DNA of 64,000 nt. Origin: Erythrobasidium yunnanense. Its lineage: Eukaryota > Basidiomycota > Cystobasidiomycetes > Erythrobasidiales > Erythrobasidiaceae. The stretch is from contig BCJC01000006.1 in assembly GCA_001600175.1 (NCBI GenBank), positions 1,255,968 to 1,319,967 of the forward strand, given 5' to 3'. Below are positions 1-30,284 of the stretch, in pieces (positions within the stretch are counted from its first letter, which is position 1; each line of letters starts with the position of its first letter). Position numbers and translations under genes: made by a program. The notes beneath the pieces are model-generated. The model did no database searches. It was given only the letters and a program-made list of their open reading frames with translations, and was not told the DNA's origin.

Positions 1-355
1 AACGAGATCAGAGTTGGATCATAGATACTACATCTATCAGCACATACCCTCATCGGGATCCCTCGATGTTGATTCCAGCAGATCCATTGTTTTCGGTCGT
101 TTGAAGACAGAGGGTAATGTAGCAGCAATTCGAGCAGAATGAAGTGATTTCTACGTGTTTTAGCGTGTTGTGAGCATGCAGATGTGTCGTTTGAAGCGTC
201 AGCTCGTTGTTTGAATTGGCGATAAACAGAGAATAGTCGCGGTAAGAGAGAAAGCCGTGAAAACGGCTAAGTCGAAATCAACAATGAAGAGCGAGGGTTG
301 TCTCTGCTCCAACTCGTTCGCCGGTTCTCTTGTGACATCTCAAACGACGACGACG
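1..355. other. Upstream region of RAD54
   Basis: I see no gene here. The stretch holds the presumed promoter and 5' UTR of the RAD54 gene. An in-frame ATG also lies at 284, so some of this sequence could be coding if that start is used. No clear TATA box or repeat was noticed. Confidence 0.5.
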
Positions 356-3300
356 ATGCTACGAAGCGCGCTGTTGGCTTCAAAAGCAGCCAAAACATCA
401 GCGGCGAAGGTGACTGACGAGAACGACGCTGGCGAAGGAGCTGCGAAGAATACGCCTGCCAAAACAGCCGCAGTTTCAAGCTCAAGTATCACACCTCTGT
501 CTGCTGGACCTCGTTCTGCGTCTGGAGCTGGCTTTGGGATCATTCAATTCAAACCATTCAAACTCCCCTCATCCAGCCTGATTAGAGATGTCCCCAAACG
601 AGCTGCTGCTGCTAAAAGGAAGAGAATAAGCTACAGAGAGAAAGGCGCGAAAGGCGATGATGAGGAAGACAGCGACGACGATAGCTCGCGAAAGAAGAAG
701 AAGAAAACAAACAAGGGCGACGACGCGGCGTATGATGACAACGATGATGGAGAAGGCGGTCTAGGCCTCAAGAAGTATCCTGTGTTTCAACCCAAACCAT
801 CTGCACAAGTCATGACTTCCTCCTTTGCAATCCCGCAACTCCGTGACAAGAAGACTGGCGATATCATCGAGACGCGCATCACTTTCGGCGCTCTGGGTGT
901 ATGTCGACGTCCAAATGTCATTCCTCGTCCTCTCCACGACCCTTTAGCAGATCATGCGATTGTGCTTTGGGATCCGACTGTCGATGATGTAGAGACGGAA
1001 GAGGAGAAGAAAGCAAGGGAAGAAGCCAAGAAAGCGGCAGATGAAAAGCAGAAGGATCAAGATAAGACTGGTATACACAAAAGTCTAGCACAGCTACTAG
1101 GCCTGGACAAGAATAAGGATGAAAAGGTGAAGAACACGAAAGTCCCGGTGGTCATCGATCCAAAACTATGCAAGGTGCTTCGGCCGCATCAAGTGGAAGG
1201 AGTCAAGTTCCTCTACAAAGCATCGACGGGCATGATTGCAGATGGTGCATTTGGCTGCATCATGGCCGATGAAATGGGTCTCGGAAAGACCGTAGGCCAC
1301 GACCCATTTCGTCTTTCAAGACCTCACTGACCATGCTACTTCTTATAGTTACAATGCATCAGTCTCTTGTGGACATTGATCAAGCAGTCGCCAAAGTCAA
1401 ACAAGCCAACCATCGAAAAGGCTATAGTCGCGTGTCCTGCTTCACTAGTCAGAAACTGGGCAAATGAGCTTGGTAGGTGGACCCGTTTTACTACTTTGAG
1501 CACCACTGACCATCTTCCTCCAGACAAATGGCTCGGTCCGAATGCGATAAACCCTCTAGCTATCGATGGCTCGAAAAACAAGACCGAGGTAATTCAGGAA
1601 ATTCGACAATGGGTCTCTGCACACGGTCGAGCGATAATTCGACCAGTCATCATCGTTTCCTACGAAACACTCCGCTCACTTACCGACGAACTCGGCAATG
1701 CACCCATCGGTCTTCTCCTCTGCGATGAAGCACATCGACTTAAGAACAGTCAAAACCAGACATACACCGCTCTCAACTCCATTAACGTGCAAAGAAGAGT
1801 ACTTCTCACAGGTACTCCCATTCAGAACGATCTTACGGAATACTTCGCTCTTCTCGACTTCGCTGTCCCGGGGTATCTGGGTACAAGAGCGGAGTTCAAG
1901 AAGAATTTCGAAAACACAATCATGCATGGCAGAAACGCAGATGCTTCGGAACTACAGATCGAGAAATGCCAAGCTAAGCTGAAGGAGCTCACTACCCTTG
2001 TCAACCGCTTCGTGATTAGGCGAACAAACGATCTTCTCACTAAGTACCGTAAGTTTACTATATCTCTCGATCATTAAGGCAATCCTGACACTTCTACTTC
2101 AGTCCCCGTCAAATACGAGCACGTCGTGTTCTGCTCTTTATCGCCTTTCCAGCTGGCTCTCTACCGTCTCTTCGTACTATCACCCGAAATCAAAGCACTC
2201 ATCAAAGGCAAGGGATCAAATCCACTCGTTGCTATCGGAATGCTGCAAAAGCTCTGCAACCACCCTGACCTCGTAAATCTGGCACGAGATCTACCGGGAA
2301 GTGAGGACTTATTCCCCGAAGGATATAAGCAGAGTGGAAGGAAGCGAGAAGTGTGGCCGGCATTGAGTGGCAAGATGCTCGTGCTAGAAAGGTAAGTATC
2401 CCCGAGCTTCCTTCCAGTGACCTCGCTGACCTGATCCTGCTAGATTCCTCGATAAGATGCGTGCAGATACCGATGACAAGATCGTTCTCATCAGCAATTA
2501 CACCGAAACATTAGATGTCATTGAGCGTTTGCTCAATGCTAAAAGGTATGCGAACGAGATAGACGGGCTCAACGCAACTGACTTTCCATGACATGTAGAT
2601 ACGGCTACTTCCGTCTTGAAGGCAGTACAAATATCAAGAAGCGCCAAAAGCTAGTCGATCAGTTCAACGATCCTGAAGGCAAAGAGTCGGTCTTCTTGTT
2701 ATCGAGTAAAGCTGGAGGATGTGGCATCAATCTGATTGGGGCGAACCGTCTGGTGCTGTTCGATCCTGGTGAGTTAATTCTGCTTCTGGCCAGATCAATA
2801 CTGACTCGAGTCAATGCCAGACTGGAACCCAGCAGCTGATCAGCAGGCACTCGCAAGAGTGTGGAGAGACGGTCAGAAGAAGAACTGTTTCGTCTATCGC
2901 TTCATCGCTACAGGCACACTCGAAGAGAAGATCTTCCAGCGTCAAGCACACAAGCAAGCACTCTCTTCAGCCGTGGTGGACGACAACGAAGCTGCAGAAA
3001 GACACTTCAGCAAGGACAACCTACGTCAGCTCTTTGATTACAAGGAAGGGACGACTAGTGAAACGCACGACACATTCAAGTGTAAAAGATGTAAAGACGG
3101 CAAACAAAAGATCAAAGCGCCAGCAATGCTTTACGGCGATACAAGCAGGTAAGCAATGGCGTCTAGATGTAAACAATATGTATCATGCTGATGGAGCTTG
3201 TCAAGCTGGAATCACTTCTCAAACGAATGCCTAGCAAGTATTCACGACGATCTTCTTCGGGCAGAGACCGGTCTAGGCGCGGTGACCGCTGTATTCCAAG

Positions 3301-22745: not shown

Positions 22746-24337
22746 CTAAGTAGCGCATCTCTCCCATCTTCTCCTCTCGCTGATACTAGGCGGCAAGCGC
22801 GTAAGGTGTTGTTCCAGCATGCTTTCATTCAGACTTGCGCCTTTTGGCGGGCGAGGACCAAGTTGGGAATACGAGCTTGATGTTACGGAGAAGGAGTGGC
22901 GCATCCGTTCTTGCTGCTGCTGCTGCTGCTGTGATTGATGGGGCGTCATTGAGCGAGATAGAGTAGGAACGCGGAACAAGCTTGGAAGTTGGTTGAAGGA
23001 AGGTAGACGAGGTGGTGCTGAAGGAGTATTCGAAAGGCTTTGATACTGAGGGTTGTGGTGGAGCGCTGCAGACTCAGGACGTTGCAGTCTCGGTACAGTC
23101 GCCGGGAATGGGTAGATCATAGGCAGAGGAGCAGGACTCGGTGTCGTCCGTCTCGAGGGCGGAGCAGCCGCAGCGTACTGATATTGAGGTACGTTTGAAG
23201 TAGTGAAAGGTGTGAATGGAGTAGTGGCACGACTTGGAGCAGGCGTGGGGAGGCGAGCTGGATATGCTTGGTTCAAGATTGGATAAACAGGCTCGGCATC
23301 CGCATCGTACGAATGAGGTAGGAAGTCTTCTTTCGATAAGGTGGAGACGACACTTCCGCGATGAGAAGGAGGTGTCGGACGCTGGCTATTCGAAGAGAAG
23401 CCGCCCCGCTTTTCGGAAATGAAAGATGAGCTGCGACTCGCTGCGTTGTTGGTGTGGCTGTCGTTTGCTGCCCAGCCTTCGGCGGTGGGGATGAGGAGAG
23501 GCCGACCTTTCTTGCCGGTCGAGCGGGCGCAGCATTGTAAGATGGCGACGAAGCCAACTAGAATGGCTAAACCTGTAGTACAATGTCGTTAGCTATTGTT
23601 GATACAGCGAATACTGTGAACTCACTGATGATAACTGTGATGATGACCGCGACTGGAAACCACTTGCAGTTCTTGTTGAAAGCAGACCAGAGATTGGTGA
23701 ATGGGACAGACGAAGGTGTACTGGTTGCACTATTCGTTGGAGGAGATGAGGGCGTCACAGTGCTCGTCACTACATCATCGCTTGTCGAGCTCGAACTCGA
23801 TGATGCTCTGCTGGTCGGTAGAGTGCTTGTCGAGCTTGTCTTCGATGGCGTGGTAGAGGATATTGAGGAGTCTGAAGGACTACTTGATGTTGAAGTACTC
23901 GTCGAAGTAAATGATGCACTGTTTCGCGCCCTCGCTGTGGTTGTTGAGCTATCCGTACTCGACAGGCTCGGAAGCGGGACTCTTGCCGTAATCGCATTCG
24001 CCCCCCGCGTTAGGCTTTGTTGTATAGCTTTCACGTCGATAGTCTGTATGAGATTGGCAGTAGTGGCCTGCGGAACGGGCTGAACATCCACCGCGTTCCC
24101 ATAGCTATCGACAATGTAGCCTGGCGTATCTGAGTCCGGCGTGTCGTCGTCGTCTTCATTGTCTTGCTGATGTCTTTGACGCTTGACAATGTCGCCTTGC
24201 CGCCGTAGGACTCGCTCGAAGCCTTGCGAAGGTAGGGCGACTTGGGTTGATGCGCTCGGTGATGTGGAAGCTTGGATGGTCGCTAGCATGCTTGCGAGCA
24301 GCACGAATTGGTGCAGAAGGATGTTGAAGGTGCGCAT
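22746..24337 (-). CDS. Single-pass Ser/Thr-rich membrane protein
   Basis: Two exons (23626-24337 and 22746-23572) give about 512 aa. A signal peptide (MRTFNILLHQFVLLASMLAT) precedes an acidic segment and a long Ser/Thr-rich stalk (residues ~130-220). One transmembrane helix (PVAVIITVIISLAILVGFVAIL) is interrupted by the intron in the DNA, and is followed by CCARSTGKKGRP and a Pro/Ser-rich cytosolic tail with a short polyGln run encoded by CTG-type repeats near 22915. This layout resembles fungal cell-wall stress sensors of the Mid2/Wsc type, but no cysteine-rich head is seen. Function unknown. Confidence 0.65.
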
Positions 24338-24986: not shown

Positions 24987-25466
24987 TCAGGTGCGAATAC
25001 GCCATAGCTCATCATACTGTCTCTTCTCACGCTTGCTCATTTTAGAGTACGGTTTAGGGTACCCAGCTCGTTTTCCTACCTTGTATAGCAGTTCAGGGAT
25101 CCAGCGGACAATTGGGAAATGCTTTGCCGTGTCGTTGATAAACTTCTGACCCCATAACCCAGTGACCTCGTCTTTGAGATCTCTTGCGTTATCTCTGATC
25201 TTGAAACCTGTCAGAGATCTTGAATGGGGACGGGAGCTTAAGCTGTCGGTGTGTCGCTTATGATGTCCTTCCTGCAGTCTGCCATGCCTGTGTGTACCGG
25301 GATTCCGACTGCGATACCTGTTTTGATAGCGCTTCCGAGGTACATAGACTTCGCGTTTGCCTCGAGTTTGCCTGTGTGCGTTGCGTCGGTGCTCCTTGGC
25401 GTAAGTGGCATCATCATCGCTAGACGAGTCGGAGCTGGAGCTGCTGTAGGTATTTCGACAAGGCAT
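24987..25466 (-). CDS. Array member 1: small basic protein with PKPxS C-terminal signature
   Basis: I do not recognise this family. From the ATG at 25466 it encodes 159 aa: MPCRNTYSSSSSDSSSDDD, an Arg/His-rich middle, a segment FKIRDNARDLKDEVTGLWGQ, then the family C-terminus FPIVRWIPELLYKVGKRAG followed by YPKPYSKMSKREKRQYDELW. Four neighbours carry the same C-terminal pattern. The frame stays open 39 codons upstream of the ATG to the shared 16-base element, encoding a strongly hydrophobic stretch (LPAPFLLSLTLFILSWYS). A longer N-terminus made with an upstream exon is therefore possible. No catalytic motif seen. It is likely a nucleic-acid or nuclear protein given the charge, but that is only inference. 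Confidence 0.6.
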   Translation of the reverse strand: MPCRNTYSSSSSDSSSDDDATYAKEHRRNAHRQTRGKREVYVPRKRYQNRYRSRNPGTHRHGRLQEGHHKRHTDSLSSRPHSRSLTGFKIRDNARDLKDEVTGLWGQKFINDTAKHFPIVRWIPELLYKVGKRAGYPKPYSKMSKREKRQYDELWRIRT

Positions 25467-25571
25467 ATTAGATGGAGTGGTAGCGTTAGAGTACCAGCTT
25501 AGGATGAAGAGAGTCAAGGAGAGGAGGAAAGGAGCAGGGAGGGCGTAGGGCAAACTAAAAAAGGCCGTCCA

Positions 25572-25587
25572 GACAGGAGACACAGCC
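25572..25587 (-). promoter_or_regulatory. Shared 16-base element upstream of array member 1
   Basis: On the plus strand it reads GACAGGAGACACAGCC. The same block (GACnnnAnACACAGCC) lies 97-119 bases upstream of the proposed starts of members 2, 3 and 4. It may be a promoter element or the start of a conserved leader codon block (minus strand GCT GTG). Confidence 0.5.
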
Positions 25588-25761
25588 TACCTGACTCACT
25601 CTTAAGTTAGTCCGAAAATTGTTGAGTTTGTAATACGAGCAGATGAACATGTTCACCGCGATGTACGTGAATTGCTAGCGCAGGCAGAGCCCGGGGCCTT
25701 GGGTGTGGCCCGTTGCATGTTCATATCAAGGCTCGGCTGGGTGACACTACGCCGCTATATA

Positions 25762-26307
25762 TCAATCGCGTCTCCTGCGGCTCTTGCGACCTCCATGACG
25801 ATCTTCACCTTCATGTTTAGCCAAGAAGCGTTTGCGCTCCTTGCTATGCATTTCAGATACTGGTTTTGGAACGCCCCGATAGTCGTGAAAAGCGTAAATC
25901 CACTCTTGAAGTGCTCTGGCGAGGCGACTCTTCTCGGTGAGGCGGAAGATGAATCCCTGCGCAGCGTCACTTCTAAGAACTTTCGGCACCTTCGTGAAGT
26001 TCGTCGGGAGTCCGAGTCTGATGGTCCCAAGGAGAGGGCCAGAAGCCACAGTCGCGCTAGAAGCCACAGATGCGCTGGATACGCTGGAAGCTTCGTCTGG
26101 TGCATAGTAGCGATATGCTTTGCCTGCCTTTCGCTTTGACCCTTTACGCGGACCGTCCCTGCGTCGACCATGAGCTCTACCTTCATGGTGGTCGCGATCT
26201 TTTGCACGATGCTTTTCGCTCTCTCCGCGTCCCGATTCCGATGATGCAGTGAACACGCGTCTGGGTGATTTGGTTGACGACCGTTTGCTTGGCTTGCGGC
26301 GAGTCAT
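25762..26307 (-). CDS. Array member 2: small basic SR-rich protein with PKPVS signature
   Basis: From the ATG at 26307 it encodes 181 aa beginning MTRRKPSKRSSTKSP, a start like those of members 3-5. The first ~65 residues are Arg/Lys/His/Ser-rich. Then come a Ser/Ala-rich linker, IRLGLPTNFTKVPKVLRSD, and the family C-terminus LQEWIYAFHDYRG followed by VPKPVSEMHSKERKRFLAKH, ending in KSRRRRD. An in-frame ATG at 26436, directly at the shared upstream element, would add 43 residues starting MAVSCVTAAAE. Family and function unknown. The high Arg content suggests RNA or DNA binding, which is inference. Confidence 0.6.
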   Translation of the reverse strand: MTRRKPSKRSSTKSPRRVFTASSESGRGESEKHRAKDRDHHEGRAHGRRRDGPRKGSKRKAGKAYRYYAPDEASSVSSASVASSATVASGPLLGTIRLGLPTNFTKVPKVLRSDAAQGFIFRLTEKSRLARALQEWIYAFHDYRGVPKPVSEMHSKERKRFLAKHEGEDRHGGRKSRRRRD

Positions 26308-26418
26308 ATTTGCGATATCTTTCGTTTGGCAGAAGAAGATAGTGTTTTCAGCTATCGCAGCGCAAAACCGAGCAGAGGTGCTCACGGTAGACACATGGGA
26401 GATTTCTGCTGCTGCAGT

Positions 26419-26434
26419 GACACAAGACACAGCC
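26419..26434 (-). promoter_or_regulatory. Shared 16-base element upstream of array member 2
   Basis: Plus strand GACACAAGACACAGCC, 112 bases above the ATG at 26307. It abuts an in-frame ATG (26434-26436), so here it could lie within coding sequence. Confidence 0.5.
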
Positions 26435-26574
26435 ATCACCGTGACCAGGCATATTGTGGCATAGAACTTAGGGACTGATTGGTTATACAGTACAAATATC
26501 GTCTCTGAAGCGTCGGTATTGAAGAGGGTAGCTGGAACAAGGATACTACGATGTCCATAGCCTTTCTGCACTGA

Positions 26575-27187
26575 TCATCTTGGACGATCTCTGCGATTTC
26601 TGCGATCTCTGCGATCTCTGCGATCTCTGCCGTGTCTGCTATGTTTGCGATATTCACGATCTTCGTCACCATCGCGGTCTTCGTTGCGTCTGGGACGGTA
26701 CTTGCGTTCCAGTTGTCTCCTCTGCTTTTCAGGATACAGGGAGACAGGTTTCTTGATGTCAAGTTCTGGTCCGAAAGCGCGGTATGCCCATTCGTGCAAG
26801 AGCCCAAACACTGGATACCGAAGAGCCATACGGTGAGCGTATTTCTGGCCCTGACTACCTCTTAGAGGCTTCGTGTAACGTCGTGCCTTCTTGCGAAACT
26901 TGAGTACAGCGACAGTGTTGGTTGTTGTCTTCAGAGATGACGCATCCGAAGACTCGTCGGAAGGGTCATCGCGATGACGTTTGTCTGATTTGCGTCTGGA
27001 GTGGTTGCTGTGTCTGCGATCTTCCCGGTTTCTGTTTCGACGGTCTCTATCGTCGCGATCTCTTGTGCGACTCTTGTCTCGCCCCTGATTGCTGCGTCGG
27101 TAGTCTTCACTGTCGTCACCGTCGAAAGACAGAGCCTCATGGTGTTTCTGAGCGCTTCGCAGAACTCCTCGATCTTTCGCGAGTCAT
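26575..27187 (-). pseudogene. Array member 3: basic protein with broken 5' frame
   Basis: The family start MTRERSRSSAKRS is present at 27187, but this frame stops after 16 codons (stop 27137-27139). The rest of the protein continues in another frame, with no plausible intron between. That second frame is open for about 190 codons and encodes RD/RN-rich sequence, FRKKARRYTKPLRG, the family C-terminus YPVFGLLHEWAYRAFGPEL followed by IKKPVSLYPEKQRRQLERKY, and a C-terminal RDRRDRRDRR run from 9-base repeats. Either a one-base frameshift has damaged this copy or the sequence has an error. The long intact downstream frame argues for recent damage or an assembly error. Confidence 0.5.
26585..26630. 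repeat. 9-base tandem repeat (CGATCTCTG) in array member 3
   Basis: About five near-perfect copies of a 9-base unit. On the minus strand they encode the C-terminal Arg-Asp-Arg repeats of array member 3. Confidence 0.8.
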
Positions 27188-27502
27188 AGGCGGAGCCTTT
27201 GGACTGTCTGGTACCTGGAGCTTCGGGAGTGAGGGTCGCGACTACGTGCAGGATGAAGGTATGGAGAGGGGATAGCGTACAGCAAACTCAGAACGTATGT
27301 CGGCGGACAAGATACACAGCCTCCTTAGGTTGGTGTGCTGGCGACGCCACGATGTGAATCTCGACGTCAATAAAGAGAGGGATTATACAGAACTACATTG
27401 ATCGGCTGATATGGAGGTTTCGACGCCATTTTCAAGTAGGCCGCCCTTCACGTAGTTGTGACAGGATTGCCACAGGGGACGGCAGCATCTTATAAATCAT
27501 TC
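27188..27502. other. Intergenic gap between array members 3 and 4
   Basis: About 315 bases holding the 5' flank of member 3. The first ~130 bases upstream of its start align with the flank of member 1: the GGCTGTGT element, then a shared AGTTTGC-TACGC block, then pyrimidine-rich DNA. No separate gene seen. Confidence 0.5.
27306..27321 (-). promoter_or_regulatory. Shared 16-base element upstream of array member 3
   Basis: Plus strand GACAAGATACACAGCC, 119 bases above the ATG at 27187. Its spacing is out of register by one base relative to members 1, 2 and 4. Confidence 0.5.
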
Positions 27503-28348
27503 TCACAGCTTCTTGTTACGCTTAGCTCGCTTCTTCCAGTAGGTCTCTTCCCTCTTGGGCATCAAGGAGACTGGCTTTGGAACGCCCACTTGCTTAAAGG
27601 CCATATATAAGAGCCGATGAAAGGTCGCGAAAGCAGGGTATCTCTTGCCAAAGACGTATAAGTTTTCCGTAGCGTTCTTGTCCCCAAAGACTCCCATTAC
27701 CTTTCTGGAGTCGTTTCTGAAATGCGATTTGTCGTAAACGCTGGCAGAGCCGTCATCGGACTCCGTGTCCTCGTGCATCACATGTCGATGCGACCGTCGC
27801 TTGGATATGGGCTGCTTCTTTATTCTCGTTCTTGTGTTATGCTTGTGCCTACGCCTCTCCTTATCCCTCTGCTTCTGTTTGAGCTCTCTCTCTCGTTGCT
27901 TCTTCTCGTCGCGCTCCTTTCGCCGCTGTCCATCCTTGCCGTGATAGCGACAGACATCATTGTCATATAAAATGCCGCACAGCTCATTCTCAGCTTCGTA
28001 CATCTCAGGTATCGAATCCCTGATGTGCTGGGGTCTGTAGTTGGCTGTCATTCGCCTGAGTTGCTTGACTCTTTCTCTGCAGCACGACTTAGTGCCAGGA
28101 GGAATCGGGTCAGTCTTTGGATACATGGGGCCATAGTATGGCTTGCTTCGACGGCTGCGACCGTGTCGGCTTGGCTCCTCGGAAGACTCGGACGGTGTGA
28201 GCTGGGCTTCGCTGCTACTGTCATCATCTTCAAAGTAGACATCCTTGTTCTTGGACGAGTGCTTGTGCTTGTAAGAGTGCGCTGACCCTGGACGAGACTT
28301 GGCCTGCGAGCGGCTGCGACTTCGGCTCGGCTTGCGATGCTCAGTCAT
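27503..28348 (-). CDS. Array member 4: basic SR-rich protein with CCR...VCxxH module and PKPVS signature
   Basis: From the ATG at 28348 it encodes 281 aa. Parts in order are MTEHRKPSRSRSRS, an acidic/Ser patch, a module starting at CCRERVKQLRRM and ending at NDVCRYHGKDG (two Cys, then Cys-x2-His 42 residues later), a highly charged Lys/Arg/Glu coiled stretch, and the C-terminal family region MGVFGDKNATENLYVFGKRY, then FHRLLYMAFKQVG and VPKPVSLMPKRE. An in-frame ATG at 28471 next to the shared upstream element would add 41 residues starting MSGAAVFCVC. The Cys/His module could bind zinc; function otherwise unknown. Confidence 0.65.
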   Translation of the reverse strand: MTEHRKPSRSRSRSQAKSRPGSAHSYKHKHSSKNKDVYFEDDDSSSEAQLTPSESSEEPSRHGRSRRSKPYYGPMYPKTDPIPPGTKSCCRERVKQLRRMTANYRPQHIRDSIPEMYEAENELCGILYDNDVCRYHGKDGQRRKERDEKKQRERELKQKQRDKERRRHKHNTRTRIKKQPISKRRSHRHVMHEDTESDDGSASVYDKSHFRNDSRKVMGVFGDKNATENLYVFGKRYPAFATFHRLLYMAFKQVGVPKPVSLMPKREETYWKKRAKRNKKL

Positions 28349-28444
28349 CTTGGTGTTACAAGCGAGCTGAAGATATGGGAGTACGCGGTGATGGACAGTC
28401 GCTACGAACGATAGCACGCTTGAAGGTCGATCTGCTGTTGGGCA

Positions 28445-28460
28445 GACGCAAAACACAGCC
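28445..28460 (-). promoter_or_regulatory. Shared 16-base element upstream of array member 4
   Basis: Plus strand GACGCAAAACACAGCC, 97 bases above the ATG at 28348. The minus-strand GCT GTG codons are in frame with that ATG. Confidence 0.5.
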
Positions 28461-28629
28461 GCGCCCGACATAAACGATTGAGTCCGCGCAAAAGAGCTGC
28501 TCACGCATCACATCATCTTAGCATATGAATCGAATCCAAGACCTCTGTCCTGAGCTTGGTTGATCCGAACGAGACAGGCACAGTTTAAAATCGCGAATGT
28601 ACAACGAACCTCCTTGAGTAAGCTGACCT

Positions 28630-29526
28630 TTACTTACGCCTCTTACTTTTGCTTTGACTCTGCTTAGCTAAACGACGATAGTGAGCCTGATCTTTCTTGG
28701 GCATCAAGGAGACAGGTTTGGGCACACAATCCTTGAATGCCATGTATGCGATCTTGTGGACGCTTCCATGTAAAGGCCATCTCTTAACCAGCAGATACAG
28801 GGCCACTGTAGCATTTGGACGCTCGCCGTCCTCCTTACGTCGCTCGGCGTCCTCCTTACGTCGCTCGGCGTCCTCCTTACGTTGCTCGGCCTCGCGCTTG
28901 CGCTCCTGCCTCTTCTCCCTCTTGTGTTGTGCCTTCCCTCTTTTGCCATGAAAGTCACAGACTTGACGGCCCTTGAGAATGTCTTCCATCATGTTGCGAG
29001 GGTAGGCCCTGTAGGCGCCAGTCTTGGCTTTGATTTTCTGACGCTCGTACTCTTTTCGGCAACATCTCTCCAATTCCTCCGGACGATAAAGAGGGTCCCT
29101 TGGCTCTTTGACCAAGCCATCCGCGTAGAGCGAGCTGACAGGTCTTCGATGAGGGCCTACACCTTGGTGTTTAGGGCAGACTATGTAGCCAGCCAGTATC
29201 TGACGCATCTCGTTCCGATCTTCGTCGGTGTGAAGAGTCTCAATGATATACTGCGGTGGGATTGCTATGACTTCTTCAAGACGGCGGACCCATTTACGGC
29301 AGCACCGAGCCAGATTGGGGTGGAACTTCTCTTCGCGCTTGTATCTGCGCACATCGGCGGCAGAGTCAGTTGAGGAGGGCGGATCATCGCTGTCATGACA
29401 GTCATGGCTGCTATCGCTCGACTGGCTGGTGCATTGCCGGCTCTTGGACTGCTTGTACCTCCTGTGAGGCTTCGAGCCAGGACGGTTGTGCGTACTGCGA
29501 TCGCTGGATCTGCGTGGGTGCGTCAT
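28630..29526 (-). CDS. Array member 5: basic protein with two CCR...VCxxH modules and PKPVS signature
   Basis: It encodes 298 aa starting MTHPRRSSDRSTHNRP. It has two copies of the Cys/His module: CCRKWVRRLEEV...IVCPKHQG (40 residues between CC and C) and CCRKEYERQKIK...VCDFHGKRG (33 residues). Then follow an RKEDAER repeat and the family C-terminus LYLLVKRWPLHGSVHKIAYM, then FKDCVPKPVSLMPKKD, ending in a Lys/Arg/Ser tail. It is clearly a paralog of member 4. The 16-base element of members 1-4 is not recognisable upstream, so this may be the oldest or most divergent copy. Function unknown. Confidence 0.7.
   Translation of the reverse strand: MTHPRRSSDRSTHNRPGSKPHRRYKQSKSRQCTSQSSDSSHDCHDSDDPPSSTDSAADVRRYKREEKFHPNLARCCRKWVRRLEEVIAIPPQYIIETLHTDEDRNEMRQILAGYIVCPKHQGVGPHRRPVSSLYADGLVKEPRDPLYRPEELERCCRKEYERQKIKAKTGAYRAYPRNMMEDILKGRQVCDFHGKRGKAQHKREKRQERKREAEQRKEDAERRKEDAERRKEDGERPNATVALYLLVKRWPLHGSVHKIAYMAFKDCVPKPVSLMPKKDQAHYRRLAKQSQSKSKRRK
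28827..28889. repeat. 21-base tandem repeat, three copies, in array member 5
   Basis: Three near-identical 21-base units (CGTCCTCCTTACGTCGCTCGG) encode the repeated heptad RKEDAER on the minus strand, inside the charged coiled stretch. Confidence 0.85.
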
Positions 29527-30284
29527 ATGTATACGTTAGAGTTGCAGGGGTCGTTGCGGGGATTGTGTTTATGGTGTGAAAGCTAGTTCCATGCGAGCGG
29601 GAAATTTTTGCTTAAAGGTGCTGGTCGGACGGGGAACACCGCTTTTTGCGGACAAGGGTAGTCCAGCAAGTGGAAGTTTGGACGAAAGCCTTGTCTTATC
29701 GTGATCGAGGAGACGATTTCAGCTGACCTGCGTTGAGTATCTTGGATCGCGACATGTGATTATCTCGTGGACTAGTCAGGCAGATTCGCAGAAGTAATCG
29801 ACGCCGGTCAGCTGAGCTCGCAATTTGTATAGATGACTTCACTTGCCTTCTGGCGTCCGGATGGTCAAGACCATCTGAGAATGTTGATGATGGATAGGAG
29901 GGGCATCAGCTAGAAGTGCACCCGAAGGGCTAGGGTTAACAGCGCTTATTCGCATCAACACCGAAGGAGAGTCATCATCTACACTAAGAAGTACAACACC
30001 TTGTAAATACGTCAAGTCCCTTATTTACCAGTTTGCCAACAGAGGAACAGAAGACGAAGGGATGCCGAATAATGATGTACAGAGGGAAAGATGGTAGATG
30101 GTACATATCGATTATTGTACGAGTTATACGTCGTTAGAAGCAGGAAGATGATACCAGGAATGGGCCGCTGTCCGTTGTGAGCGAGGTCGATATACAAAAG
30201 CACGAGTGAAGATCGAAGGAGGTTGGAGAGTAAGGAGAGGCAGCGGAGAACAGAGTGAAGAGAGGAAGTGAGTCTTGAAGACTG
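29527..30284. other. Intergenic gap between the array and MPS1
   Basis: About 760 bases with no gene that I can support. It contains the promoter side of array member 5 and the 3' flank of MPS1. Confidence 0.4.

Follow-up and report, generated by a model that had tools for sequence, protein, structure and literature searches.

What kind of proteins are encoded by a row of five arginine-rich genes whose alignments are weak outside their C-terminal ends? The row lies on contig C6 of Erythrobasidium yunnanense (genome of 20.9 Mb in 10 contigs), in a stretch of 64,000 nt (C6:1255968-1319967) that is called the window here and whose numbering is used unless a contig is named. The open reading frames (ORFs) of the window include five in tandem, M1 to M5, all open frames on the minus strand at 24987-29526. 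M5 (28630-29526; 298 amino acids (aa), beginning MTHPRRS) carries two Cys-His modules and a C-terminal block, M4 (27503-28348; 281 aa, MTEHRKP) one Cys-His module and the block, and M2 (25762-26307; 181 aa, MTRRKPS) and M1 (24987-25466; 159 aa, MPCRNTY) the block. M3 is read in two pieces, described below. Our comparisons indicate that M1 to M5 form a genuine and old tandem gene family, new in the sense that it was unmatched in the protein catalogues searched.

The C-terminal block, of about 55 residues, is common to all five proteins (M5, 28633-28818; M4, 27506-27679; M3, 26692-26859; M2, 25801-25971; M1, 24990-25160; all minus strand) and was identified in each by alignment and by a leave-one-out profile, and in M5, M4, M3 and M1 by genome search as well. 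When profiles built without one member were run against 948 six-frame segments of the window, with the database relative P0001 (see below) included in tests of M1 to M4 and excluded for M5, the omitted member was regained each time, with expectation values (E) of 1.9e-6 for M1, 5.3e-7 for M2, 4.8e-8 for M3, 2.6e-15 for M4 and 1.6e-11 for M5. The best non-member segments had E of 0.2-0.8. A further weak segment (29572-29718; leave-one-out E 0.2-2.6) was examined in translation as a candidate relic copy, and its similarity was put down to chance. Pfam gave nothing convincing for M1 to M5 and P0001 to P0003 (weak matches only, the best being Spem1 at E 0.012), and a profile search of PDB found no family. 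Thus, the proposal in an earlier note on this DNA, that five minus-strand tandem paralogs of an unrecognised family lie here, was confirmed by the ORFs, by the profiles that link all five and by the absence of a Pfam or PDB match.

Searched against the whole genome in six frames with introns disregarded, the M4 block matched itself, M5 (9e-12), M3 (0.0013) and M1 (0.013), with no further match up to E 10 and M2 missed too; the M2 tail matched only itself. A weak match of M4 on contig C8 (E 0.93) was set aside as its locus looked unrelated. A DNA pattern for PKPVSxxM has three genomic matches, those in M2, M4 and M5, and its reversed form has none. Among 15 sequences compared by BLASTP, 7 of the 10 pairs within M1 to M5 had E below 0.01, the others being M2-M4 (0.13), M2-M5 (0.23) and M1-M5 (5.2). 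Only Y, P and S are invariant columns of the block alignment, and the block motif is G-[VY]-PKP-[VY]-S-x-M, varied in M3. All five motif strings listed in the earlier note are present in the sequence, and the common tail that it described stands, except that its h-Y-x-A-F element is missing in M1 (LLYKVGK) and shortened in M2 (IYAF).

The ATG of M3 (MTRERSRS, 27187) opens a short frame, MTRERSRSSAKRSETP (27137-27187, minus strand), which stops after 16 codons, and the tail lies in a different, long frame of 202 codons from stop to stop (26575-27183, minus strand). The database relative P0004 (200 aa) starts MTRERSRSSAKRS, matching the first 13 residues of the short frame, and is open all the way to its tail. 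Because P0004 begins likewise and is open throughout, the short and long pieces are taken as one gene, the short frame being its 5' piece. The break is either a true lesion or an assembly error; an intron seems unlikely as its cause. Of the four MT starts claimed previously, those of M5, M4 and M2 hold, and that of M3 belongs to the frame that stops. In-frame tandem repeats were also seen, of 9-nt units in M3 (26567-26665, within its basic tail) and of 21-nt units in M5 (28799-28902).

Relatives were found in a protein database search with M5 as the query (P0001, P0002 and P0003) and with an alignment of eight sequences, which yielded P0002, P0003 and, in addition, P0004 among the 7995 candidates sharing most words that were scored. 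With M2, no relative was obtained at E <= 1e-3. P0001 is a relative of M5 (53% identity over the aligned part) that is shorter by about 80 residues at the N-terminus, P0002 and P0003 are relatives of M4 (88% and 69% identical), and P0004 is a relative of M3 (80% identical). All four come from one source, marked lgn, and all four possess the tail, P0001 with one change in the motif (PTPVSLM); such retention had been named beforehand as support for a family. Scans for close relatives with M4 and P0003 as the queries gave no tblastn-confirmed locus for M4 in IMG/VR or for P0003 in prokaryote genome contigs and plasmids. As far as searched, these results suggest a lineage-restricted family. Its absence elsewhere is suggestive only, because the database run had no housekeeping positive control and M1 was never queried alone; the earlier description of the array as lineage-specific fits the four relatives and shares this limit.

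How old and how constrained is the family? Over the block, the proportion of synonymous differences (pS) in the ten paralog pairs was 0.66-0.96, the synonymous distance (dS) was infinite in six pairs and 1.6-4.9 in four, and the proportion of nonsynonymous differences (pN) was 0.35-0.61. Synonymous sites are thus saturated or nearly so, yet the block is kept. Between M3 and P0004, a 91-residue core, with bounds set after the alignment had been viewed, is identical at 86/91 positions (95%) versus 69/97 (71%) in the compared rest (Fisher test, 1.8e-5). Between M5 and P0001, the tail is identical at 42/63 positions (67%) versus 71/151 (47%) upstream (Fisher test, 0.011). Judged from these alignments, the tail appears to be better kept than the rest of the protein in two of the three ortholog pairs, so that fast change outside it, as supposed earlier, is borne out by M3/P0004 and M5/P0001 and not by M4/P0002.

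A second shared feature lies upstream of the genes. Aligning 200 nt of upstream DNA first revealed a common element, a 16-nt box, RGCKGTGTNNNNYGTC, which stands 96-118 nt before all five ATGs on the minus strand: AGCGGTGTTCCCCGTC before M5 (29628-29643, 101 nt from the ATG), GGCTGTGTTTTGCGTC before M4 (28445-28460, 96 nt), GGCTGTGTATCTTGTC before M3 (27306-27321, 118 nt), GGCTGTGTCTTGTGTC before M2 (26419-26434, 111 nt) and GGCTGTGTCTCCTGTC before M1 (25572-25587, 105 nt). The window contains five matches to the pattern, one per gene, a count that proves little by itself, since it was from these genes that the pattern had been drawn up. In a pattern-free test, the best common 16-mer upstream of the five genes reached 51/64 matches; the highest score was 46 among 300 dinucleotide-shuffled sets and 48 among 300 sets of stretches drawn at random from the window. 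The genome as a whole has 29 matches to the pattern, 24 of them outside the cluster, and 12 to a reversed control pattern. At one of these 24 (L036), the longest ORF that has its ATG in the 500 nt downstream is arginine-rich, and this is the gene A1 discussed below. The phase of the box to the ATG is 0, 0, 1, 0 and 2 for M1 to M5 and 1 for A1; since the phases differ among genes, a DNA or RNA element is a better fit than a coding leader. M1 to M5 are probably co-regulated through this box about 100 nt before the start codon.

The five proteins contain 16.0% arginine, 4.8% histidine and 9.9% lysine, versus 6.7, 2.5 and 5.0% in ten other ORFs of the window, and 5.0% glycine versus 6.2%. These are whole-protein values with the window ORFs as yardstick, a different basis from the sets of PMC10023807. 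Arginine plus lysine exceeds aspartate plus glutamate by 21 to 32, RS runs are present (SRSRSRSQ in M4), and Ser/acidic clusters stand beside the RS tails. The strongly basic character noted earlier is upheld by this composition.

Cys-His modules, matched by the regular expression CC-[RK]-x(20-60)-[VI]C-x2-H, occur twice in M5 (module 1, CCRK...VCPKH, 29167-29304; module 2, CCRK...VCDFH, 28948-29064; minus strand) and once in M4 (CCRE...VCRYH, 27941-28084, minus strand). In uncorrected BLAST within a six-sequence set, E was 1e-5 between the M4 centre and M5 module 1 and 5e-4 between modules 1 and 2 of M5; with composition correction in the 15-sequence set, M4 matched M5 at 0.004. The M5 Cys-His region matched only itself in the genome. 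The modules are possibly metal-binding, and the CCHC zinc knuckle C-x2-C-x4-H-x4-C is absent from all 19 proteins examined (M1 to M5, P0001 to P0004 and ten ORFs of the second array described below).

An AlphaFold2 (AF2) model of M4 built from nine sequences had a mean predicted local distance difference test score (pLDDT) of 63.3 and a predicted template modelling score (pTM) of 0.28. In it, 108/281 residues fell below pLDDT 50, comprising most of residues 11-77 and all of 183-221, and the Cys module and tail were mostly helical with block means of 67-86 (70-82 in the C-terminal block). A model of the last 96 residues (pLDDT 63.5, pTM 0.42) contained four helices, the last three of which span the tail block, and the best 18-mers of six tails had hydrophobic moments of 0.30-0.59. 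Foldseek found no fold with the two models. The models suggest that the tail block is helical and that M1 to M5 are probably disordered for the most part outside the tail and the modules.

Our preferred reading, held tentatively, is that M1 to M5 are lineage-restricted, arginine-rich, probably disordered and non-secreted proteins with a C-terminal docking block, which function as scaffolds or condensates. They most likely act inside the cell, as scaffold/condensate or ribonucleoprotein (RNP)-associated proteins addressed by the common tail. Each protein would have a fast-changing Ser/Arg and Ser/acidic tail followed by the conserved, probably helical block. The disordered, phosphorylatable tails would drive self-association or the binding of RNA or partners, and the block would serve as an address by which all five paralogs dock onto one and the same conserved partner or membrane surface, with the Cys-His modules as variable accessory cargo. 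Scaffold/condensate proteins, for instance the SPA/SPP plug proteins of septal pores, follow such a logic. The nearest analogues by behaviour may be these septal-pore proteins or nuclear serine/arginine (SR)-like proteins, and each of them can be turned into an explanation of its own.

The stronger of the two, though unlikely, is that M1 to M5 are nuclear SR-like proteins, whose RS tails would be phosphorylated by SRPK-type kinases and which would have a role in splicing, messenger RNP packaging or chromatin, with the block as a protein-protein contact. The RS runs, the excess of basic residues and the Ser/acidic clusters beside the RS tails all speak for it, and RS-rich basic tails are what SR proteins and RS-domain splicing factors have in common with M1 to M5. 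The proteins are unlike SR proteins, however, in having no recognised RNA-recognition motif (RRM) and no other RNA-binding domain (Pfam scans of M1 to M5 and P0001 to P0003 yielded no convincing domain, RRM or otherwise), in their unmatched tail and in their rapid evolution. Core splicing factors do not typically evolve fast or sit in tandem arrays, and the raised histidine also counts against an SR-like nature.

The septal-pore explanation draws on a second group of genes. The neighbours had been called ordinary housekeeping genes, which holds within the window, whereas just outside it, 2-14 kb to the left, lies a second array (array A; L045, L046) of seven arginine-rich ORFs on the plus strand (C6:1242190-1253649). 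An ORF was counted as arginine-rich when it began with ATG and had at least 120 aa, at least 50% R/S/K/H/D/E and at least 20% R+K, the ORFs being mechanical and intron-blind. By this rule, 7/21 ORFs in the 20 kb left of the window are arginine-rich, versus 0/58 in 24 control loci (72.5 kb; 23 box matches and one weak M4 match, with L036 and five cluster loci excluded). Among these seven, one ORF of 126 aa is rich in K/E/R and not in Ser/Arg. The window itself scores 2/53, a low count that reflects the frame break of M3 and the upstream extensions by which the composition of M4 and M2 is diluted. A box match, GGCTGTGTTTCCCGTC, stands at C6:1241990, 184 nt before the arginine-rich ORF A1 (195 aa); at the genome-wide rate, the chance of a match somewhere in a 40-kb flank is about 0.045. 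The box of A1 scores 23.3 bits; it is not general in array A, because the nine other array-A ORFs reach at best 1.8-10.5 bits (400 nt upstream, plus strand). The tail profile had no match in the ten array-A ORFs (best E 1.8), BLAST linked these ORFs significantly neither among themselves nor with M1 to M5 (best E 0.14), and Pfam placed none of them in a family above the cut-off. No paralogs of A1, A5 and A7 were found elsewhere, the best other match being one of A5 at E 0.44.

It is doubtful, yet worth weighing, that both arrays encode disordered septal-pore plug proteins of a basidiomycete, alike in composition and unlike in sequence, which would have evolved separately from the SPA proteins of Pezizomycotina and would aggregate at the pore. 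Lai in 2012 reportedly described SPA proteins as composition-alike and sequence-unlike, with little primary homology among them; correspondingly, array-A proteins share composition without detectable sequence similarity. The SPA/SPP proteins of Neurospora crassa and Aspergillus oryzae are lineage-restricted and in many cases disordered, as M1 to M5 probably are, and have a bias towards arginine and histidine. They differ in that several are reported to be Pezizomycotina-specific and in that M1 to M5 have a true homologous tail. An arginine and histidine bias is seen in both arrays and is also reported for the disordered regions of SPP/SPA proteins, where K and G are avoided (PMC10023807), and pore-gating proteins vary between fungal lineages (PMC5309816). 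In contrast to those regions, lysine is not avoided here (8.4-9.9%), and clustered SPA genes are not mentioned in the accessible portions of PMC10023807 and PMC5309816.

A broader and improbable reading would take the whole 43-kb region C6:1242190-1285493 as a modular, co-regulated assembly system made of two converging arrays of arginine-rich, probably disordered proteins, with one linking box and with an M4 Cys-His centre that is exchanged between two deep classes under fixed tails. Five proteins would share the PKPVS tail and seven would share composition and not sequence, with about 27 kb of other genes between the arrays. Such a system would possibly serve cell-cell recognition or pore gating, and it is unlike any gene cluster known to us.

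The M4 centre (residues 69-185; 27794-28144, minus strand) is 86% identical to P0002 and 38% to P0003. In the comparison of M4 with P0003, with gap columns set aside, the flanks are identical at 57/67 (85%) and 89/96 (93%) positions and the centre at 43/112 (38%; Fisher test, 1.4e-19); the edges of the centre are sharp, with bounds chosen after viewing the alignment. The same contrast is seen between P0002 and P0003 (2.0e-18), whereas M4 and P0002 show none (0.45; local identity 0.54-1.0 in 24-column windows), and the flanks of the three proteins are about equally distant from one another. The centre contains the Cys-His module, and the CC...C-x2-H frame of the module is retained. As read from these alignments, the difference may separate two classes of alleles or mark a paralog that underwent conversion at its ends. 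It would be a recognition or conflict locus if the centre existed in two deep classes exchanged between constant flanks through balancing selection or cassette conversion, as happens in fungal allorecognition or in conflicts of hosts with parasites, an idea to which we give still less credence than to the modular system. Possible deep allelic classes and a swapped centre are likenesses to het-type allorecognition loci. M4 differs from those loci in that Pfam found no HET, NLR or known allorecognition domain in M1 to M5 and P0001 to P0003, and the likeness comes from three sequences with boundaries set post hoc, of which P0003 may be the converted paralog.

The earlier note had also raised a secreted-effector role if hydrophobic leaders were real, and this option was weakened by the N-termini, which were assessed by hydropathy rather than by a trained predictor. 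From the shared starts (the long frame for M3), the maximum Kyte-Doolittle value, KD(9), in the first 40 residues was -1.2 to 0.2, and from their MT/MP starts M1, M2, M4 and M5 have no strongly hydrophobic segment there. Upstream, M1 has an extension of 40 open codons without ATG (KD(9) up to 2.8), M2 one of 89 open codons with an ATG 43 codons upstream (up to 2.9), and M4 one of 53 open codons with an ATG 41 codons upstream (up to 2.1). M5 is closed 3 codons upstream without ATG, and the ATG frame of M3 has 18 open hydrophilic codons upstream, also without ATG. Hydrophobic leaders are therefore not a family feature, since M5 and M3 cannot have one; for M2 and M4 the sequence leaves them possible, and we infer that these two are not secreted either. 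Like clustered fungal effector families, M1 to M5 are tandem, fast-evolving and apparently lineage-restricted with a short conserved motif, and the hydrophobic stretches in the extensions of M1, M2 and M4 with upstream ATGs in M2 and M4 could be taken the same way. Unlike such families, they are strongly basic, carry the motif at the C-terminus and leave no room for a leader on M5 and M3; moreover, P0002 to P0004 begin at MT codons as called in the database, and what is similar upstream is a DNA box that stands in more than one phase. A secreted effector family is accordingly very unlikely. Chance compositional similarity of low-complexity ORFs, with R/S/D/E runs inflating similarity and alignments weak outside the tail, is scarcely credible as an explanation, being contradicted by the leave-one-out profiles of the non-repetitive tail, the tail-keeping relatives and the common box.

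Several observations weigh against the preferred reading of M1 to M5 as intracellular scaffold or condensate proteins with a docking tail. The array is not intact as assembled, M3 being frame-broken, and M4/P0002 has no significant excess of tail conservation (Fisher test, 0.24). The box pattern was drawn from the very genes that it would unite, most of its 24 outside matches are probably chance, and it stands in frame with the gene in M1, M2 and M4. The upstream ATGs of M2 and M4 lie just before the box and, together with the hydrophobic extensions, leave a leader possible. The AF2 models are poor and Foldseek came back blank, so no fold is claimed. Finally, lysine is enriched in M1 to M5 and reportedly avoided in SPA/SPP regions (PMC10023807).

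Other features lie around the array and elsewhere in the genome. A Ser/Thr-rich ORF (23567-24337, minus strand) adjoins the array, has hydrophobic stretches near both ends and looks cell-surface-like on reading its sequence. At the left edge of the window, an ORF that we take from its sequence to be RAD52-like (C6:1255556-1255936, minus strand) stands head to head with a presumably RAD54-like ORF (257-1330, plus strand). On contig C10, two copies of the STE3 pheromone receptor (L047, L048) were found at C10:9109-9981 (minus strand) and C10:47901-48773 (plus strand), which are exact reverse complements over 3462 nt; this duplication reflects a palindromic contig, an inverted arrangement of the mating type or a fold-back in the assembly. 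STE2 had no match in the genome, by a search that also gave none in control genomes.

With these results, a family without a catalogue name gains a testable entry, namely a short conserved tail, a box as a handle on co-regulation and relatives for measuring selection. If septal-pore gating or condensate assembly proved true, E. yunnanense would possess a separately evolved counterpart of the SPA/SPP proteins, and clustering together with composition could reveal such proteins once sequence similarity has been lost.

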